Below are positions 15,177 to 25,954 of a stretch of DNA of 64,000 nt, one piece after another. The stretch lies in contig NZ_JAJIWP010000003.1 in NCBI RefSeq assembly GCF_020880975.1, forward strand, positions 992,001 through 1,056,000, given 5' to 3'. The DNA comes from Mucilaginibacter sp. UR6-1 (GTDB lineage Bacteria; Bacteroidota; Bacteroidia; Sphingobacteriales; Sphingobacteriaceae). The notes under the pieces are model-generated. The model was not told where the DNA came from. It made no database searches and saw only the letters and a list, made by a program, of their open reading frames with translations. The position numbers were made by a program, and so were the translations under genes. Numbering within the stretch: position 1 is the stretch's first letter; every line of letters begins with the position of its first letter.

Positions 15177-17210
15177 ATGTATATCTCTGTAAAAAAAAGA
15201 TTGTTGTGCGTAGCGCTACTATGCCTTTGTGTACTATCAACAACAGCCAACGCGCAGTCAAAAATCATCCGCATTCCGTACGGAACGAACCGCTATATAA
15301 CATACAATTTAAGTAACGGGCTGTATGATGTTCACCAAAATGGTACAAAGGTTTTTGATGATGTTTCGGCATCAGCCGTTGTTGATAAGCAAACTTTGTC
15401 ATCAGCAAAATACAGTAAGCGCACTTATACCAAAACCGTTGTAAAAACCGGCTTTGGTAAAGGAATAAAGCATGTTATCACTTTAACAGGTAAAGCACTG
15501 CCAACCATGCAGCAGGTATTCTACATCTACAACAATGGTAGCTTTTTTACGCAATTAATTATAACGGGTAAATACATATCTACTAATAATATGGTGCCTT
15601 TTGCCGGGCGTTTCAGGCAGTTAAGCGGCGATGTATATTCGCTGTTTATGCCTTTTGATAACGATACCTTTATCAGCTATAATGCAAGGCCATTTAAGGG
15701 TAACGAAAAAGTAATCAGTGCCGAAGTAGGTGCCGTTTATGATAACAATACTCGCGGCGGGTTGGTGGTTGGCTCGGTTGAGCATATGGTTTGGAAGACC
15801 GGCGTAACCACCGCCTCTGCGGAAACAAATACCATAAAGGTTGCTGTGGGCTATACCGAAGAAAGCGTTACCCGCGACAAAATTGCCCATGGCCTGGTAA
15901 GCGGGAGCGAGGTGCGTTCGCCGCTGATATTTGTTGGCTATTTTGCTGATTACCGTACCGGCCTTGAAGCATTTGGTAAAGCCAACCGTACAGCCGAGCC
16001 GCCCTTTGTAGCCAGATGGACGAAACCTACGCCCGTAGGCTGGAATAGCTGGGGCGTAATGCAGGAAAAGCTGACCTTTGATAAAGCCATCAAGGTAGCC
16101 GATTTTTTTGCTGATAGCCTGAAAGGTTTCCGCCTGGGTAACACCGCTTACATCGACCTGGATTCCTACTGGGACAATATGCTGGTTAACAAAAATGGTG
16201 AGCGCGATTTTTCAAAACTAAAAGAGTTTGCCGATCACTGCAAAGCTAAAGGCTTGCAGCCGGGCATCTACTGGGCGCCTTTTACCGATTGGGGCTTTCA
16301 GTCAGGCCCAGGCAGAAAGATAGAGGGTAGTAACTATACCTGGGGCGAGGCATGGACAAAGATCGGCAACCAGTACCATGAGCTTGACGGTGCATGTGCT
16401 ATTGATCCAACGCATCCCGGCACGCAGGCGCGCATCAATTATATGATCGACCATTTTAAGGCTTGCGGTTTCACTATGATCAAAATCGATTTTTTAGGTC
16501 ATGCTGCTGTTGAGTCGACCGGTTTTTATGATAAAAGCGTAACTACCGGTATGCAGGCCTACCGTAAAGGGATGGAATACCTGATAAAACGCATTGACGG
16601 GCAGATGCTGATCTATGCGGCTATATCACCAAGTTTGGCCAGCGGCCGGTACGTGCATACCCGCCGTATAGCCTGCGACGCTTTTAAGTCTATTAAGGAT
16701 AGCCGTTATACCTTAAACAGCGTAACCTATGGCTGGTGGCAAAGCTATGTGTATGATTATGTGGATGCCGACCACATTGTATTTTCAACCGAAAGCGAAG
16801 GTGCCAATCGTGCACGCTTACTATCAGGATTAATAACAGGCACTTTGATTACCGGGGATGATTATTCAGCCAACGGCCTATGGAAAGCCCGGGCTAAGGA
16901 GTATCTGCAAAACCCGGAGCTATTAACCATCGTAAAAAATGGAAAAGCTTTTAAACCTGTTGATGGCAATGTTGGAGATGGCGCATCGGCGGTATTTGTA
17001 AATAAGATAGGCAAGAGCTATTACGTAGCGGTGTTCAATTATACCGATAAAGAAGCTAATTTAAAGCTTGATGCTAAGCGTTTGGGTATACCGGCTAAAT
17101 GTACAGTTACGGAGATATTGGATATACAAAAACCGGCCTTGTTCAATAATGAGATAGACGTTTCACTACCTGTGGCTGATGCCGTTATTTACAGGTTTGA
17201 CCCCTCCTAA
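15177..17210 (+). CDS. Clan GH-D (GH27/GH36-like) alpha-galactosidase family protein
   Basis: A 677-residue secreted enzyme (signal peptide about 1-26). After an N-terminal beta domain, the barrel begins at PVGWNSWG, the hallmark of clan GH-D. Asp438 in MIKIDFLGH is the expected nucleophile and Asp501 in RIACDAFKS the expected acid/base. A C-terminal beta domain ends the protein. It likely removes alpha-galactosyl or a related sugar from the fucosylated substrate. Family assignment between GH27 and GH36 is uncertain. It is the last gene of the three-gene unit; a short palindrome lies between it and the convergent proC gene. Confidence 0.82.
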   Translation: MYISVKKRLLCVALLCLCVLSTTANAQSKIIRIPYGTNRYITYNLSNGLYDVHQNGTKVFDDVSASAVVDKQTLSSAKYSKRTYTKTVVKTGFGKGIKHVITLTGKALPTMQQVFYIYNNGSFFTQLIITGKYISTNNMVPFAGRFRQLSGDVYSLFMPFDNDTFISYNARPFKGNEKVISAEVGAVYDNNTRGGLVVGSVEHMVWKTGVTTASAETNTIKVAVGYTEESVTRDKIAHGLVSGSEVRSPLIFVGYFADYRTGLEAFGKANRTAEPPFVARWTKPTPVGWNSWGVMQEKLTFDKAIKVADFFADSLKGFRLGNTAYIDLDSYWDNMLVNKNGERDFSKLKEFADHCKAKGLQPGIYWAPFTDWGFQSGPGRKIEGSNYTWGEAWTKIGNQYHELDGACAIDPTHPGTQARINYMIDHFKACGFTMIKIDFLGHAAVESTGFYDKSVTTGMQAYRKGMEYLIKRIDGQMLIYAAISPSLASGRYVHTRRIACDAFKSIKDSRYTLNSVTYGWWQSYVYDYVDADHIVFSTESEGANRARLLSGLITGTLITGDDYSANGLWKARAKEYLQNPELLTIVKNGKAFKPVDGNVGDGASAVFVNKIGKSYYVAVFNYTDKEANLKLDAKRLGIPAKCTVTEILDIQKPALFNNEIDVSLPVADAVIYRFDPS

Positions 17211-17257
17211 ACGGCGAAGCCCTCATGAGCACCGCTAAAAATAATGATAGCGAATAA

Positions 17258-17276
17258 TCCTCCCCAAAGGGGAGGA
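17258..17276. repeat. C/G-rich palindromic repeat between convergent genes
   Basis: TCCTCCCC (17258-17265) and GGGGAGGA (17269-17276) pair perfectly around AAA. It belongs to the same CCCCTAAAGGGG-like class as the four copies at 24250-24765 and probably also works as a bidirectional transcription stop. Confidence 0.75.
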
Positions 17277-17290
17277 CTTTGATGAATATC

Positions 17291-20512: not shown

Positions 20513-20659
20513 CTCACCCTGTCATCACTACGCTCGACATCCCTCTCTGCGCGAGCGCAAAGAGGACGTAAAATTCAGTTCAATATCTCTTAAAAAAATA
20601 AACCCCTCTCTCTGCTTTGCAGAGAGAGGGGTGACCAGTGTAGCGTAGTCGGGGTGAGT
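20512..20659. repeat. Nested inverted-repeat element spanning two convergent stop codons
   Basis: Outer arms ACTCACCC (20512-20519) and GGGTGAGT (20652-20659), second arms ACTACGCT (20527-20534) and AGCGTAGT (20642-20649), plus an internal hairpin near 20543-20565. The outer arms overlap the stop codons of the antiporter and argF'. The layout resembles a small non-autonomous palindromic element. Confidence 0.75.
20588..20631 (-). terminator. Strong intrinsic terminator of the argF' side
   Basis: A 13-bp perfect stem (CCCCTCTCTCTGC 20603-20615 with its complement 20619-20631, loop TTT) followed on the minus strand by a T-rich run (20591-20602). It ends the minus-strand arginine operon. Confidence 0.85.
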
Positions 20660-22800: not shown

Positions 22801-22838
22801 TTTAAGGTTAAAGGAGAAAGGTAAAAGGATAAAGGTTA
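22801..22838. repeat. Purine-rich flank of the S23 gene, left copy
   Basis: A run of AAAGGT/AAAGGA-like units that ends on the stop codon of the four-helix-bundle gene. Its inverted counterpart is at 23215-23253. Confidence 0.65.
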
Positions 22839-23198
22839 CTTTTCGTTTCGCAAAAACTTGATGAATGCGATTAACATGGCCTTCACTTCATTTATCTCCT
22901 GGTTAATATTATCATACTTGTTTTTTGGAACATAGCCCAAATCAAAAATTAAATAACAAGTATATTCTACTTCATGTGCCGAACCTAAAGCATTATCAAG
23001 ATAATGCGCAAAGTCCTTATTTGTATTCTTGCCACAACCTTCAACTATATTTAACGGTATAGAGTAAGTTGATCGTCTTAATTGGCTGGATAAAGCAAAC
23101 CTTTCTTCAACAGGTAGCAAAGGAATTATTTCGGTATAAACTCGCTTGGTAAGCAAATGTGCTTTTAACCAAACATCCAGTTTTTTATAGTCCCTCAT
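22836..23198 (-). CDS. Four-helix-bundle protein, S23 / Avd-like family
   Basis: A 120-residue helical protein of the 23S rRNA intervening-sequence (S23) family: DYKKLDVWLKAHLL at the N-terminus, RFALSSQLRRSTYSIPLNIVEG in the middle and a C-terminal EINEVKAMLIAFIKFLRNEK helix. The fold is shared with Avd proteins of diversity-generating retroelements, but no reverse transcriptase or template repeat is near. It interrupts the arginine operon between argC and argD and is bracketed by inverted purine-rich repeats, which suggests it arrived as a small cassette. Function of solitary members is unknown. Confidence 0.88.
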   Translation of the reverse strand: MRDYKKLDVWLKAHLLTKRVYTEIIPLLPVEERFALSSQLRRSTYSIPLNIVEGCGKNTNKDFAHYLDNALGSAHEVEYTCYLIFDLGYVPKNKYDNINQEINEVKAMLIAFIKFLRNEK

Positions 23199-23199
23199 T

Positions 23200-23253
23200 A
23201 CCTTTATTGTTTCTTTAGCTACCTTTTCCCTTTCACCTTTATCCTTTCACCTC
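23200..23253. repeat. Purine-rich flank of the S23 gene, right copy (inverted)
   Basis: On the minus strand this reads as AGGTGAAAGGATAAAGGTG-like units, inverted relative to 22801-22838. It lies between the S23 start and the argC stop. Confidence 0.65.
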
Positions 23254-23255
23254 CA

Positions 23256-24305
23256 TTAAAATCCAATCGCCTTCAATCGTAATCCGGCGCGTTCATCCAG
23301 ACCAAACAGTAGGTTCATGTTTTGAACCGCCTGGCCTGACGCGCCTTTGAGTAAATTGTCTATAATGCTTATTATTAATAGTTTATTGCCGTGTTTTTTA
23401 ACCTGAACAAAGCACTTATTGGTATTAACCACCTGTTTCAGATCGATGTTACGATCGGTAACATGGGTAAATGCCTGATCTTTGTAAAAGTTTGTATATA
23501 ATGCTAAAGCCTCCTCCTGGGTTAAATCACTGTCGGTATAAATGGATGCTATGATGCCACGTGTAAAATCGCCACGGTAGGGGATGAAATTCAGATTGCC
23601 CCAATCCTGTGATGGGGGAGTGAAATCTGATTGCAATTGATTAAGTGACTGACCTATTTCATTCAGATGCTGATGATCAAACGCTTTATAAACCGACAGG
23701 TTATCATTTCTCCAGCTAAAGTGCGAGGTAGTTGAAAGGCTCTGTCCCGCGCCGGTTGATCCTGTAGTGGCGGTAATATTTACCTCACTGGTAATTAATC
23801 CTTTTGATGCAAGCGGCAGCAAGCCTAACTGCAAACAGGTGGCAAAACAACCCGGGTTGGCAATATTCTGCGCTTCGCGGATGGCATCCCTGTTTAGTTC
23901 GGGCAACCCATAAACAAAGCTTTTGTTGCCAATGGTAGCCTTTGGTTTGAGGCGAAAATCCTGACTCAGGTCAATGATCTTTACCGTATCCGGGATAGGG
24001 TTGGCCTCTAAAAACTTACGCGCGTCGCCATGGCCTACACATAAAAAAAGTACGTCAATAGCTGTAGATAGTTCAGCCGCGAATTTCAGATCGGTATCAC
24101 CAAACAGGTCGGAGTGTACCTCATATACATAATTGCCCGCGTTGCTGTTACTATGCACAAAGGCAATCTCAACATTAGGGTGATTAATGAGGATGCGCAG
24201 CATTTCGCCGCCGGTGTAACCGGCACCGCCTATAATTCCTGCACGGATGCCCCCGGCCCCTAAAGGGGAGTTGTTGTTGGATATGTTTGAATGTAACTCA
24301 GTCAT
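23256..24305 (-). CDS. argC: N-acyl-gamma-glutamyl-phosphate reductase
   Basis: Reduces N-acylglutamyl phosphate to the semialdehyde. The 349-residue protein has the NADP loop AGIIGGAGYTGGEML and the catalytic cysteine in NIANPGCFATCLQLGLLPLA. ArgC proteins usually start one or two residues before the Rossmann strand; here about 20 extra residues precede it, and SPLGAGG in that extension is encoded by a palindromic repeat (24250-24270). No alternative ATG directly before the Rossmann strand is visible, so the repeat-derived segment is probably translated. Confidence 0.92.
   Translation of the reverse strand: MTELHSNISNNNSPLGAGGIRAGIIGGAGYTGGEMLRILINHPNVEIAFVHSNSNAGNYVYEVHSDLFGDTDLKFAAELSTAIDVLFLCVGHGDARKFLEANPIPDTVKIIDLSQDFRLKPKATIGNKSFVYGLPELNRDAIREAQNIANPGCFATCLQLGLLPLASKGLITSEVNITATTGSTGAGQSLSTTSHFSWRNDNLSVYKAFDHQHLNEIGQSLNQLQSDFTPPSQDWGNLNFIPYRGDFTRGIIASIYTDSDLTQEEALALYTNFYKDQAFTHVTDRNIDLKQVVNTNKCFVQVKKHGNKLLIISIIDNLLKGASGQAVQNMNLLFGLDERAGLRLKAIGF
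24250..24270. repeat. Palindromic repeat copy 1, in the argC 5' coding region
   Basis: CCCCTAAAGGGG core at 24257-24268 preceded by CCCCCGG. It encodes part of the N-terminal extension of ArgC. Confidence 0.8.
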
Positions 24306-24321
24306 TATAATAAAATTAGTT

Positions 24322-24340
24322 CCCCTTTAGTGATTAGGGG
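24322..24340. repeat. Palindromic repeat copy 2, over the cupin stop codon
   Basis: CCCCT and AGGGG arms (24322-24326 and 24336-24340) with a diverged centre. The cupin stop codon (24334-24336) lies inside it. Confidence 0.7.
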
Positions 24341-24738
24341 ATAACCCTGTCATTTTTTGTAGATGGATATGAGTACAAAATGAATTCCAGGTCGGCATCC
24401 CATTTATTAATGATATAATGATGCTGGCCCGGGTTGATTTGGATGCCCTGCTGCTCACGTAAGGCGTGCTCGGCACCGTCAATAACAAATGTTGCCCTGC
24501 CTTTTAATATGAAGAACAGTTGCGTTGCCTTTTCATGGTAATGCAACTGCTCAGCCGTATCGGGCGGCATTAATTCCTGCTTAACCGATAATCCGTCAGT
24601 ATCAACAAAGGTCCAGCCGTGGCAACCATCGCCCCATGTATAATGGTTAAGGCATTCGCTTTTTGAAAAAATAGTGGTCGCCCCCCAGCCCCCTGAAGGG
24701 GGAACACTGTTAGCACTATTGTTTTCCGTTGATGACAT
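24334..24738 (-). CDS. Cupin domain protein
   Basis: A 134-residue single-domain cupin. Metal-binding-type residues appear in LHYHEKATQLFFILKG and the second motif INPGQHHYIIN; it may be a sugar- or amino-acid-derivative enzyme or a small binding protein, but no substrate can be named. About 20 N-terminal residues before the conserved part include SVPPSGGWGA, encoded by a palindromic repeat, and its stop codon lies in another copy. It sits between argG and argC with gaps of 19 and 28 bases, so it is co-transcribed with them. Confidence 0.8.
   Translation of the reverse strand: MSSTENNSANSVPPSGGWGATTIFSKSECLNHYTWGDGCHGWTFVDTDGLSVKQELMPPDTAEQLHYHEKATQLFFILKGRATFVIDGAEHALREQQGIQINPGQHHYIINKWDADLEFILYSYPSTKNDRVIP
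24681..24702. repeat. Palindromic repeat copy 3, in the cupin 5' coding region
   Basis: CCCCCTGAAGGGGG core at 24689-24702 with an adjoining CCCCCC run. It encodes PPSGGWGA of the cupin N-terminus. Confidence 0.8.
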
Positions 24739-24751
24739 AAGCTCTTATAAG

Positions 24752-24775
24752 CCCCCTTTAGGGGGTTTGGGGGTT
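24752..24775. repeat. Palindromic repeat copy 4, over the argG stop codon
   Basis: CCCCCTTTAGGGGG core at 24752-24765. It supplies the last residues and the stop codon (24758-24760) of argG. Confidence 0.8.
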
Positions 24776-25954
24776 AACTTTATGGTAGATCATTACCTGG
24801 TTGCCAAATATTTTGGAGAAACCTTTTACATCCTCACCACTCCAGGCGTTGTTCATTTCGCCGTAGCTGCCAAATTTGTTCGACATCAGGTCGTGGTCCG
24901 ACTCAATACCTACTATCTGGAAACGGTAAGGGTTAAGCTGAACGTATACTTTACCGCTAACTGTTTTTTGAGTATCGGTTAAAAATGCTTCCATGTTGCG
25001 CATAATCGGGTCGTGAAACTGCCCTTCGTGCAGCCAGTTGCCGTAAAAGGTAGCCAATTGATCCTTCCATGATAGCTGCCATTTGGTAAGCACATGTTTT
25101 TCTAAAGTATGATGTGCTTTAATGATGATCACGGGGGCAGCCGCCTCAAAGCCAACACGGCCTTTAATGCCGATGATGGTATCACCAACGTGTATATCAC
25201 GGCCAACGCCATAAGGCTGGGCAATGGCCTGCAATGCCTGTATAGCTTTGGTAGGATGATCGTACTGCTCCCCGTTAATAGCAACCAGTTCGCCTTTATC
25301 AAACGTAAGCTCAAGGTTTTTTTCTTCGGTAGCTGTTACCGGTGTAGGCCATGCATCCTCAGGCAAGCCTAAATTTGAGGTAAGGGTTTCCTTACCACCA
25401 ACTGATGTACCCCAGATGCCTTTGTTGATTGAATATTTGGCTTTCTCAAAATTCATCTCAACACCGTGCTTTTTCAGGTATTCAATTTCCTCTTCGCGGC
25501 TTAATTTAAGATCGCGGATAGGGGTAAGTATTTTAACTTCGGGCACCAGGATGTTGAATATCATATCAAAACGCACCTGGTCATTACCGGCACCTGTGCT
25601 GCCATGGGCAACATATTCGGCACCAATCTCTTTAGCGTAATTGGCTATGGCTGTAGCCTGGCTAACACGCTCGGCACTTACTGAAAGGGGGTAAGTATTG
25701 TTTTTTAATACGTTACCGTAGATAAGGTAGCGCACACAGCTATCGTAAAAATTGGTAGTTTCATCAACCACGTGGTGGCTGGTTACGCCCATTTTAAAGG
25801 CACGTTCTTCAACGCTCTTAAGTTCTTCATCGCTAAAGCCGCCAGTGTTTACAATTACCGAGTGCACCTCCATGCCGAGGTCGCGGGTTAAATAAATGCA
25901 GCAAAACGATGTATCTAAACCGCCGCTGTATGCCAATACTACTTTTTTCTTCAT
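24758..25954 (-). CDS. argG: Argininosuccinate synthase
   Basis: Joins citrulline and aspartate with ATP. The 398-residue protein starts with KKVVLAYSGGLDTSFCC, the PP-loop of this family, and contains AHGSTGAGNDQVRFD and a late YRFQIVGIESDHD region. The C-terminal NPQTP and the stop codon come from a palindromic repeat, so the natural C-terminus may have been altered. It is the second gene of the minus-strand operon, 30 bases after the GNAT gene. argH, the next pathway enzyme, is not in this window. Confidence 0.95.
   Translation of the reverse strand: MKKKVVLAYSGGLDTSFCCIYLTRDLGMEVHSVIVNTGGFSDEELKSVEERAFKMGVTSHHVVDETTNFYDSCVRYLIYGNVLKNNTYPLSVSAERVSQATAIANYAKEIGAEYVAHGSTGAGNDQVRFDMIFNILVPEVKILTPIRDLKLSREEEIEYLKKHGVEMNFEKAKYSINKGIWGTSVGGKETLTSNLGLPEDAWPTPVTATEEKNLELTFDKGELVAINGEQYDHPTKAIQALQAIAQPYGVGRDIHVGDTIIGIKGRVGFEAAAPVIIIKAHHTLEKHVLTKWQLSWKDQLATFYGNWLHEGQFHDPIMRNMEAFLTDTQKTVSGKVYVQLNPYRFQIVGIESDHDLMSNKFGSYGEMNNAWSGEDVKGFSKIFGNQVMIYHKVNPQTP

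Follow-up and report, generated by a model that had tools for sequence, protein, structure and literature searches.

Short palindromic elements at gene junctions of the Mucilaginibacter arginine operon and a candidate mobilising role for DUF559 nucleases

The palindromes in the arginine operon of a Mucilaginibacter genome are accounted for by two copies of a family of junction elements, each carrying a stop, a start and a leader. Both the existence of this family and its mobility are well supported. A conserved nuclease (i.e. DUF559) lies between these same arms; short forms can arise from the nuclease unit, and the arm types match the nuclease clades. The two arginine-operon elements are probably REPIN-like and non-autonomous, having descended from a DUF559-nuclease element, with DUF559 mobilising them in trans. 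We infer that DUF559 would be the mobilising enzyme, acting by either cut-and-paste or copy chemistry.

Anatomy of the elements and the genome-wide palindrome family

On the minus strand of the 64-kb window (i.e. the whole stretch of DNA that was analysed), the operon has the order argG (24758-25954), a cupin gene (Cupin_2, PF07883; 24334-24738) and argC (23256-24305). Four palindromes had been noted on these gene boundaries in the first-pass annotation. Three exact copies of CCCCTNNAGGGG (at 24257, 24690 and 24753) and an imperfect fourth, CCCCTTTAGTGATTAGGGG (at about 24322), were located, and these are not four units but pair up as inverted arms to form two ~94-bp elements flanking the cupin gene. 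The ORF positions agreed with the accompanying claims that two of the palindromes contain the stop codons of argG and the cupin gene and that the other two encode the N-termini of the cupin protein and ArgC.

Element 1 (24680-24773; 94 bp) occupies the argG/cupin junction. Its arm CCCCCTTTAGGGGGTTTGGGGG (24752-24773, minus strand, given in plus-strand letters) provides the argG stop (24758-24760) and the final argG codons, the C-terminus of ArgG extending into the element. The start codon (ATG at 24738) and the cupin leader MSSTENNSANSV follow (24703-24738, minus strand), and the other arm, GCCCCCCAGCCCCCTGAAGGGGGA (24680-24703), encodes PPSGGWGA on the minus strand, joined to the cupin core. 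Element 2 (24249-24341; 93 bp) occupies the cupin/argC junction, with a degenerate arm, CCCCTTTAGTGATTAGGGGA (24322-24341, minus strand), that gives the cupin stop codon, a start codon (ATG at 24305) and the ArgC leader MTELHSNISNNN (24270-24305, minus strand), and an arm, GCCCCCGGCCCCTAAAGGGGA (24249-24269), that encodes SPLGAGG on the minus strand, joined to ArgC, whose N-terminus is thus provided by the element. Stop codons come with each element, as do an AT-rich spacer that includes an ATG, a leader of ~12 residues and an arm whose translation, (P/S)PxGGxGA, is joined to the native protein. The palindrome does add amino acids, as had been proposed, but the insertion goes beyond the palindrome and includes the start codon and an N/S/T-rich leader. 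A supposed fifth copy at 17259 is CCTCCCCAAAGGGGAGG and belongs to a different palindrome family. This palindrome lies at 17206-17280 between two convergent genes and was found in 13 copies in 832 kb of the genome (control 0).

Three copies of CCCCTNNAGGGG in the 64-kb window were equalled by 13 of 100 shuffles with one mismatch allowed, so the window alone is insufficient to judge chance. In the whole genome (4.57 Mb), 52 exact cores were counted as compared to 0 for a reversed-pattern control. The 50 cores read with their flanks comprised 25 left and 25 right arms with the consensus AGCCCCCYAACCCCCTRAAGGGGGAG and a loop, T(A/G)AA, whose orientation was constant in all 50. Most cores were paired, the two palindromes being inverted around a short AT-rich spacer of 16-70 nt that differed from copy to copy, which is the anatomy of a REPIN. 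Genomes of the genus contained 0-147 cores each (controls 0-3), with high numbers in most, and the family was near background in most other Bacteroidota.

An inverted palindrome doublet with a variable spacer fits mobilisation by a RAYT (HUH, Y1_Tnp) transposase, as in classical REPIN/REP systems (PMC3116915), and Y1_Tnp genes were detected in 55/61 genus genomes. However, Y1_Tnp was absent from this genome, with its 52 copies, and from genome G451, with 55 copies. An arm pair was contained in 2 of 20 RAYT-like regions, none of which had arms on both sides of the gene, and the Y1 count was uncorrelated with copy number (rho 0.22, P = 0.14). RAYT/IS200 was therefore rejected as the mobiliser, being missing from the genome, unlinked and uncorrelated, and movement of these elements by such a transposase is considered very unlikely.

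Empty sites, gene boundaries and supplied leaders

The genus was identified as Mucilaginibacter from the relatives of ArgC, and in 30 of its genomes each arg junction, including that of element 1, was either short and empty or held one element. In one empty example, AACGGGAATGACTAAT separated ArgG from the cupin while cupin and argC overlapped; at empty cupin/argC junctions the genes overlap or leave a gap of 7-20 nt. The cupin/argC element is present here and in M. roseus (L094) but absent in Mucilaginibacter sp. JRF (L095), whose ArgC was 93-94% identical to the ArgC here by direct comparison; the protein starts MTELHSNISNNN-SPLGAGG-IRAG here and MTEQTSVN-IRAG in JRF. Comparison of filled and empty cupin/argC junctions defined the insert as arms, spacer, start codon and leader, with the upstream gene stopping within the first arm, which has stop codons. 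A native intergenic origin for the spacer, trapped between two arms, was rejected as this sequence is missing from empty junctions. The state of the cupin/argC junction changed 17 times on a tree of 97 ArgC genes, with at least 12 of the changes forced by well-supported branches. Near-identical copies occupied both arg junctions of one genome (L093), and related elements were found at argC in a few Pedobacter (L156, L158). The argC site, whose junction sequence has diverged, showed no target-site duplication.

A further feature lies beside argC. A gene for a 23S-rRNA-intervening protein (IVP; four-helix bundle, PF05635) lies at 22819-23252, between argC and the next gene, with an 18-nt inverted repeat, AGGTAAAAGGATAAAGGT, on both sides. 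This gene, 1 kb away from the palindromes, was considered as their partner and rejected: none of the 8 IVP genes in the genome adjoined a listed palindrome copy, and the IVP inverted repeat differs from the palindrome arms. A seemingly similar IVP gene ends directly upstream of argC in Pedobacter L147 and L160. Because of the flanking repeat and this placement near argC, IVP genes may be another junction-inserting element.

Preference for gene boundaries was assessed in 832 kb (i.e. 40 stretches of ~770 kb together and the window), in which a simple hexamer method called 683 genes and a weight matrix found 56 arms (control 1). The outer ends of 26 of the 56 arms were at most 6 bp from a gene boundary, as compared to 2.2% of random positions, and 36 were at most 15 bp away (random, 5%). 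The closeness to stops is partly explained by the first bases of the element, which complete a stop codon (TAG, TAA). Following removal in silico, 18 of the 20 junction elements left a gap of 20 nt or less (P = 3.5e-8), whereas only 30% of such junctions are this tight. Random intergenic insertion was rejected as the source of the gene-end bias since gaps of this size hold 1.5% of intergenic bases. The earlier proposal, that a palindromic element had spread to gene ends and added residues there, had named two comparisons on which it could fail, one with orthologues free of the element and one with gene boundaries genome-wide. It survived both, as element-free orthologues have different, shorter termini (i.e. 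ArgC of JRF and the empty cupin/argC junctions) and the copies favour gene boundaries and tight junctions. An ATG and leader supplied by the element were present on HisH, MurG-like, KdsB-like, TrpG-like, cupin and ArgC proteins, the MurG, KdsB and TrpG assignments being presumed from the N-terminal sequence.

One copy is intragenic and adds APQPPEGGAFDSASPSNVPPLGGKGA in frame to RadA, which makes the comparison with Rickettsia palindromic elements drawn at first reading an apt one. In 30 relatives, the RadA loop was short, or carried the full insert, a single-arm remnant or other repeats. In-frame palindromic insertion was thus observed in unrelated genes, namely RadA, ArgC, the cupin gene and the HisH and TrpG-like leaders. 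Several repeat families share the same hot spots, namely tight operon junctions and the RadA loop (EVGSQKSEV-type repeats).

The palindromes could instead be selected, non-mobile gene-end structures, such as terminators, mRNA stabilisers or translational couplers. In favour of this reading, the 21 paired elements were distributed with 15 in co-directional junctions, 5 in convergent junctions, none in divergent promoter regions and 1 intragenic, and the predicted RNA hairpins were strong and stable (z of -2.5 to -6.4). Against this stand the patchy presence at one site among close species, the near-identical copies in the adjacent junctions of L093 and the copy within RadA. The reading is largely refuted by the existence of empty sites and is regarded as extremely improbable; a secondary function acquired after insertion is possible.

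The DUF559 nuclease between the arms

In this genome, the arms of one pair lie 389 bp apart, and between them, at the hisA/hisF junction, is a DUF559 (EDxHD/Vsr-type) domain fused via SPFRGSGG to HisF. Among 30 genomes, this junction carried the DUF559 element in 14 and measured 11-19 nt in 3. At hisF in L276, a short element retained both ends of the DUF559 unit (5' AACAATAGT; 3' coding KLLNTITQTLRSPFRGPGG) and is thus an internal deletion of that unit. Genome G440 has a second DUF559 unit within the same arms, fused to HisH. As DUF559 of this arm type (type A) was seen in the his operon only, the A-type DUF559 itself may be immobile. Unrelated GTCATTGCGAGGAACGAAGCAATC-type repeats occupied hisA/hisF in L266, L269, L273, L274, L280-L282, L284, L288 and L290.

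The DUF559 domain matched PDB 3hrl (endonuclease-like, E = 2e-19) and weakly matched a mobile-intron protein, PDB 3r3p (E = 0.5), which we take to be the EDxHD homing endonuclease I-Bth0305I. Residues D42, E53, D55, H59, D68 and R71 (domain numbering of L234) were invariant in 50/50 DUF559 domains, all of which had the signature E-x-D-G-x2-H-x8-D containing the EDxHD catalytic residues. The domain is under purifying selection (pN 0.10-0.18 vs pS 0.69-0.94). The family of EDxHD homing endonucleases, including I-Bth0305I, has been reviewed (PMC3943268).

DUF559 was present in 54/61 genus genomes, and palindromic arms occurred on both sides of nearly every locus displayed in full. Flanking repeats were scored as the best inverted repeat between 260-nt flanks, for which 493 control genes gave a 95th percentile of 11 and a 99th of 13; most DUF559 loci scored 12-41, far over these controls. 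Mapping the seven arm types on the tree with its seven DUF559 clades took 6 changes, which is the minimum, as compared to a shuffled mean of 29.9, and 0/200 shuffles were as low. Independent evidence for this match rests on types B, C and D, because types A, E, F and H are mostly at one or two sites by descent; comparison of flanking genes placed the 16 loci of types B, C and D at 14 distinct sites. DUF559 and its arms were found inside LeuRS, methylmalonyl-CoA mutase, an Lhr-like helicase, MetH, HsdR and a type ISP protein, and at the C-terminus of TruB. In LeuRS, the insert lengthens the protein by about 190 residues at a position between 481 and 497 of PDB 7nua. These fusions are in frame, with Pfam detecting host domains and DUF559 only and no splicing domain; no intron or intein was seen. 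In the window, a short element of type D (CTCACCC...CCCTCT...AGAGGG) at 20513-20658 forms the entire 146-bp gap between two convergent genes, adjoining the stop codons of both (TGA and TAA) with zero spare bases.

DUF559 could be a passenger, e.g. a defence or Vsr-type repair gene, in repeat-rich junctions, with the arms moved by some process of the host, e.g. template switching at hairpins. In Caulobacter, the DUF559 protein VsrA is required for a DNA-damage response and is proposed to be a mismatch-nicking repair endonuclease (PMC12907096), and the occupation of the same junctions by other repeat families suggests that these sites attract or tolerate many repeats. A passenger is, however, difficult to reconcile with the minimal number of changes between arm types and DUF559 clades at the mostly different sites of types B-D, with the position of DUF559 exactly between the arms and in frame, or with the internal-deletion derivative in L276. 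The passenger explanation is judged unlikely.

Genomes with an intact A-type DUF559 had a median of 62 cores, as compared to 22.5 otherwise (P = 4e-4; for density, P = 1e-4). This association was not significant with phylogenetically independent pairs, of which there were too few. Many copies and no DUF559 match were found in G451 (55 copies), G434 (71) and G449 (34), so copies may persist alone, DUF559 may have been lost or another enzyme may move them.

A mechanism with DUF559 as the mobiliser can be outlined. The element consists of two inverted palindromic arms of 20-25 nt around an AT-rich spacer of ~50 nt, and the whole can form one long hairpin. Insertion at tight gene junctions is tolerated and apparently exploited: stop codons in the outer ends and arms terminate the upstream gene, the spacer offers an ATG some 10-20 nt inward from the first arm, and the second arm is open in the frame of the downstream gene. 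With a stop, an ATG and an open arm, an insertion shifts the gene boundary and breaks neither gene. The HisF-fused unit at hisA/hisF represents the related full-length element, with the nuclease between the same arms. DUF559 acting in trans may nick or cut the hairpin arms or the target, allowing copies to be pasted into new junctions, on the model proposed for RAYT transposases and REPINs.

Known systems and the wider distribution of DUF559

The family resembles REPINs and their RAYTs (PMC3116915) in its inverted palindrome doublets with variable spacers, its tens of copies, its single arms that look like remnants and its conserved nuclease, which putatively acts in trans and of which there are one or a few copies. 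The partner here is, however, a DUF559/EDxHD nuclease, and whereas REPINs are extragenic, these copies lie at gene ends or within ORFs and give start and stop codons. The family is not a REPIN/RAYT system, having no cognate RAYT and not being extragenic (i.e. leaders, C-termini and a RadA loop are coded). Rickettsia palindromic elements, in a passage describing them in a review (PMC10969869), are similarly palindromes of ~100-150 bp that encode an in-frame peptide in unrelated genes, which the host protein tolerates, a likeness of anatomy and in-frame insertion judged by description. Most copies here differ in that they occupy gene junctions and bring a start codon, and the family includes an arm-matched nuclease gene, whereas that passage names no mobilising enzyme for the Rickettsia elements.

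The catalytic signature of DUF559 is shared with EDxHD homing endonucleases such as I-Bth0305I (PMC3943268), but DUF559 is fused inside or beside a host protein, is surrounded by palindromic arms and has short non-autonomous relatives. As in MITEs, the short elements have inverted terminal arms, lack an enzyme and can arise when a longer coding element undergoes internal deletion (L276); unlike MITEs, they showed no target-site duplication at the diverged argC junction, their parent enzyme is not a known transposase and the insert becomes part of the flanking proteins. Within the open-access literature, no paper was found that links DUF559 with palindromic repeats or describes these elements in Mucilaginibacter.

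Evenly balanced, in our estimation, is the broader proposal that a widespread, unrecognised class of mobile DNA in Bacteroidota and other phyla has DUF559 nucleases as its enzymes, and that in this class palindromic arms and an EDxHD nuclease in the host frame insert without splicing into junctions and surface loops of essential proteins (e.g. LeuRS, MetH, mutases and helicases) and spawn miniatures carrying start codons. If true, the class would offer a mechanism for the in-frame palindromic selfish DNA known from Rickettsia. The family found here shows selfish DNA handling tight or overlapping operon genes by carrying stops, a start codon and a harmless leader, and DUF559, a domain of unknown function by its Pfam name, is a candidate enzyme family for moving in-frame palindromic elements, whose spread becomes testable. 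A caution also follows for annotation, in that many N-terminal extensions and domain insertions (e.g. in ArgC, HisF, LeuRS and MetH) are mobile-element sequence.

Outside Mucilaginibacter, an inverted-repeat score of at least 13 was obtained at 14/30 DUF559 loci from Bacteroidota at large and at 5/10 plasmid loci, about half of the tested loci being without a strong flanking repeat by the same score. The plasmid DUF559 genes between inverted repeats were from Deinococcus (two species), Azospirillum, Sphingomonas and Picosynechococcus; the five others were not clearly so placed. Among the plasmid loci, DUF559 lies at paaD/paaZ in Deinococcus psychrotolerans (L360) and inside a transhydrogenase operon in Sphingomonas parapaucimobilis (L361).
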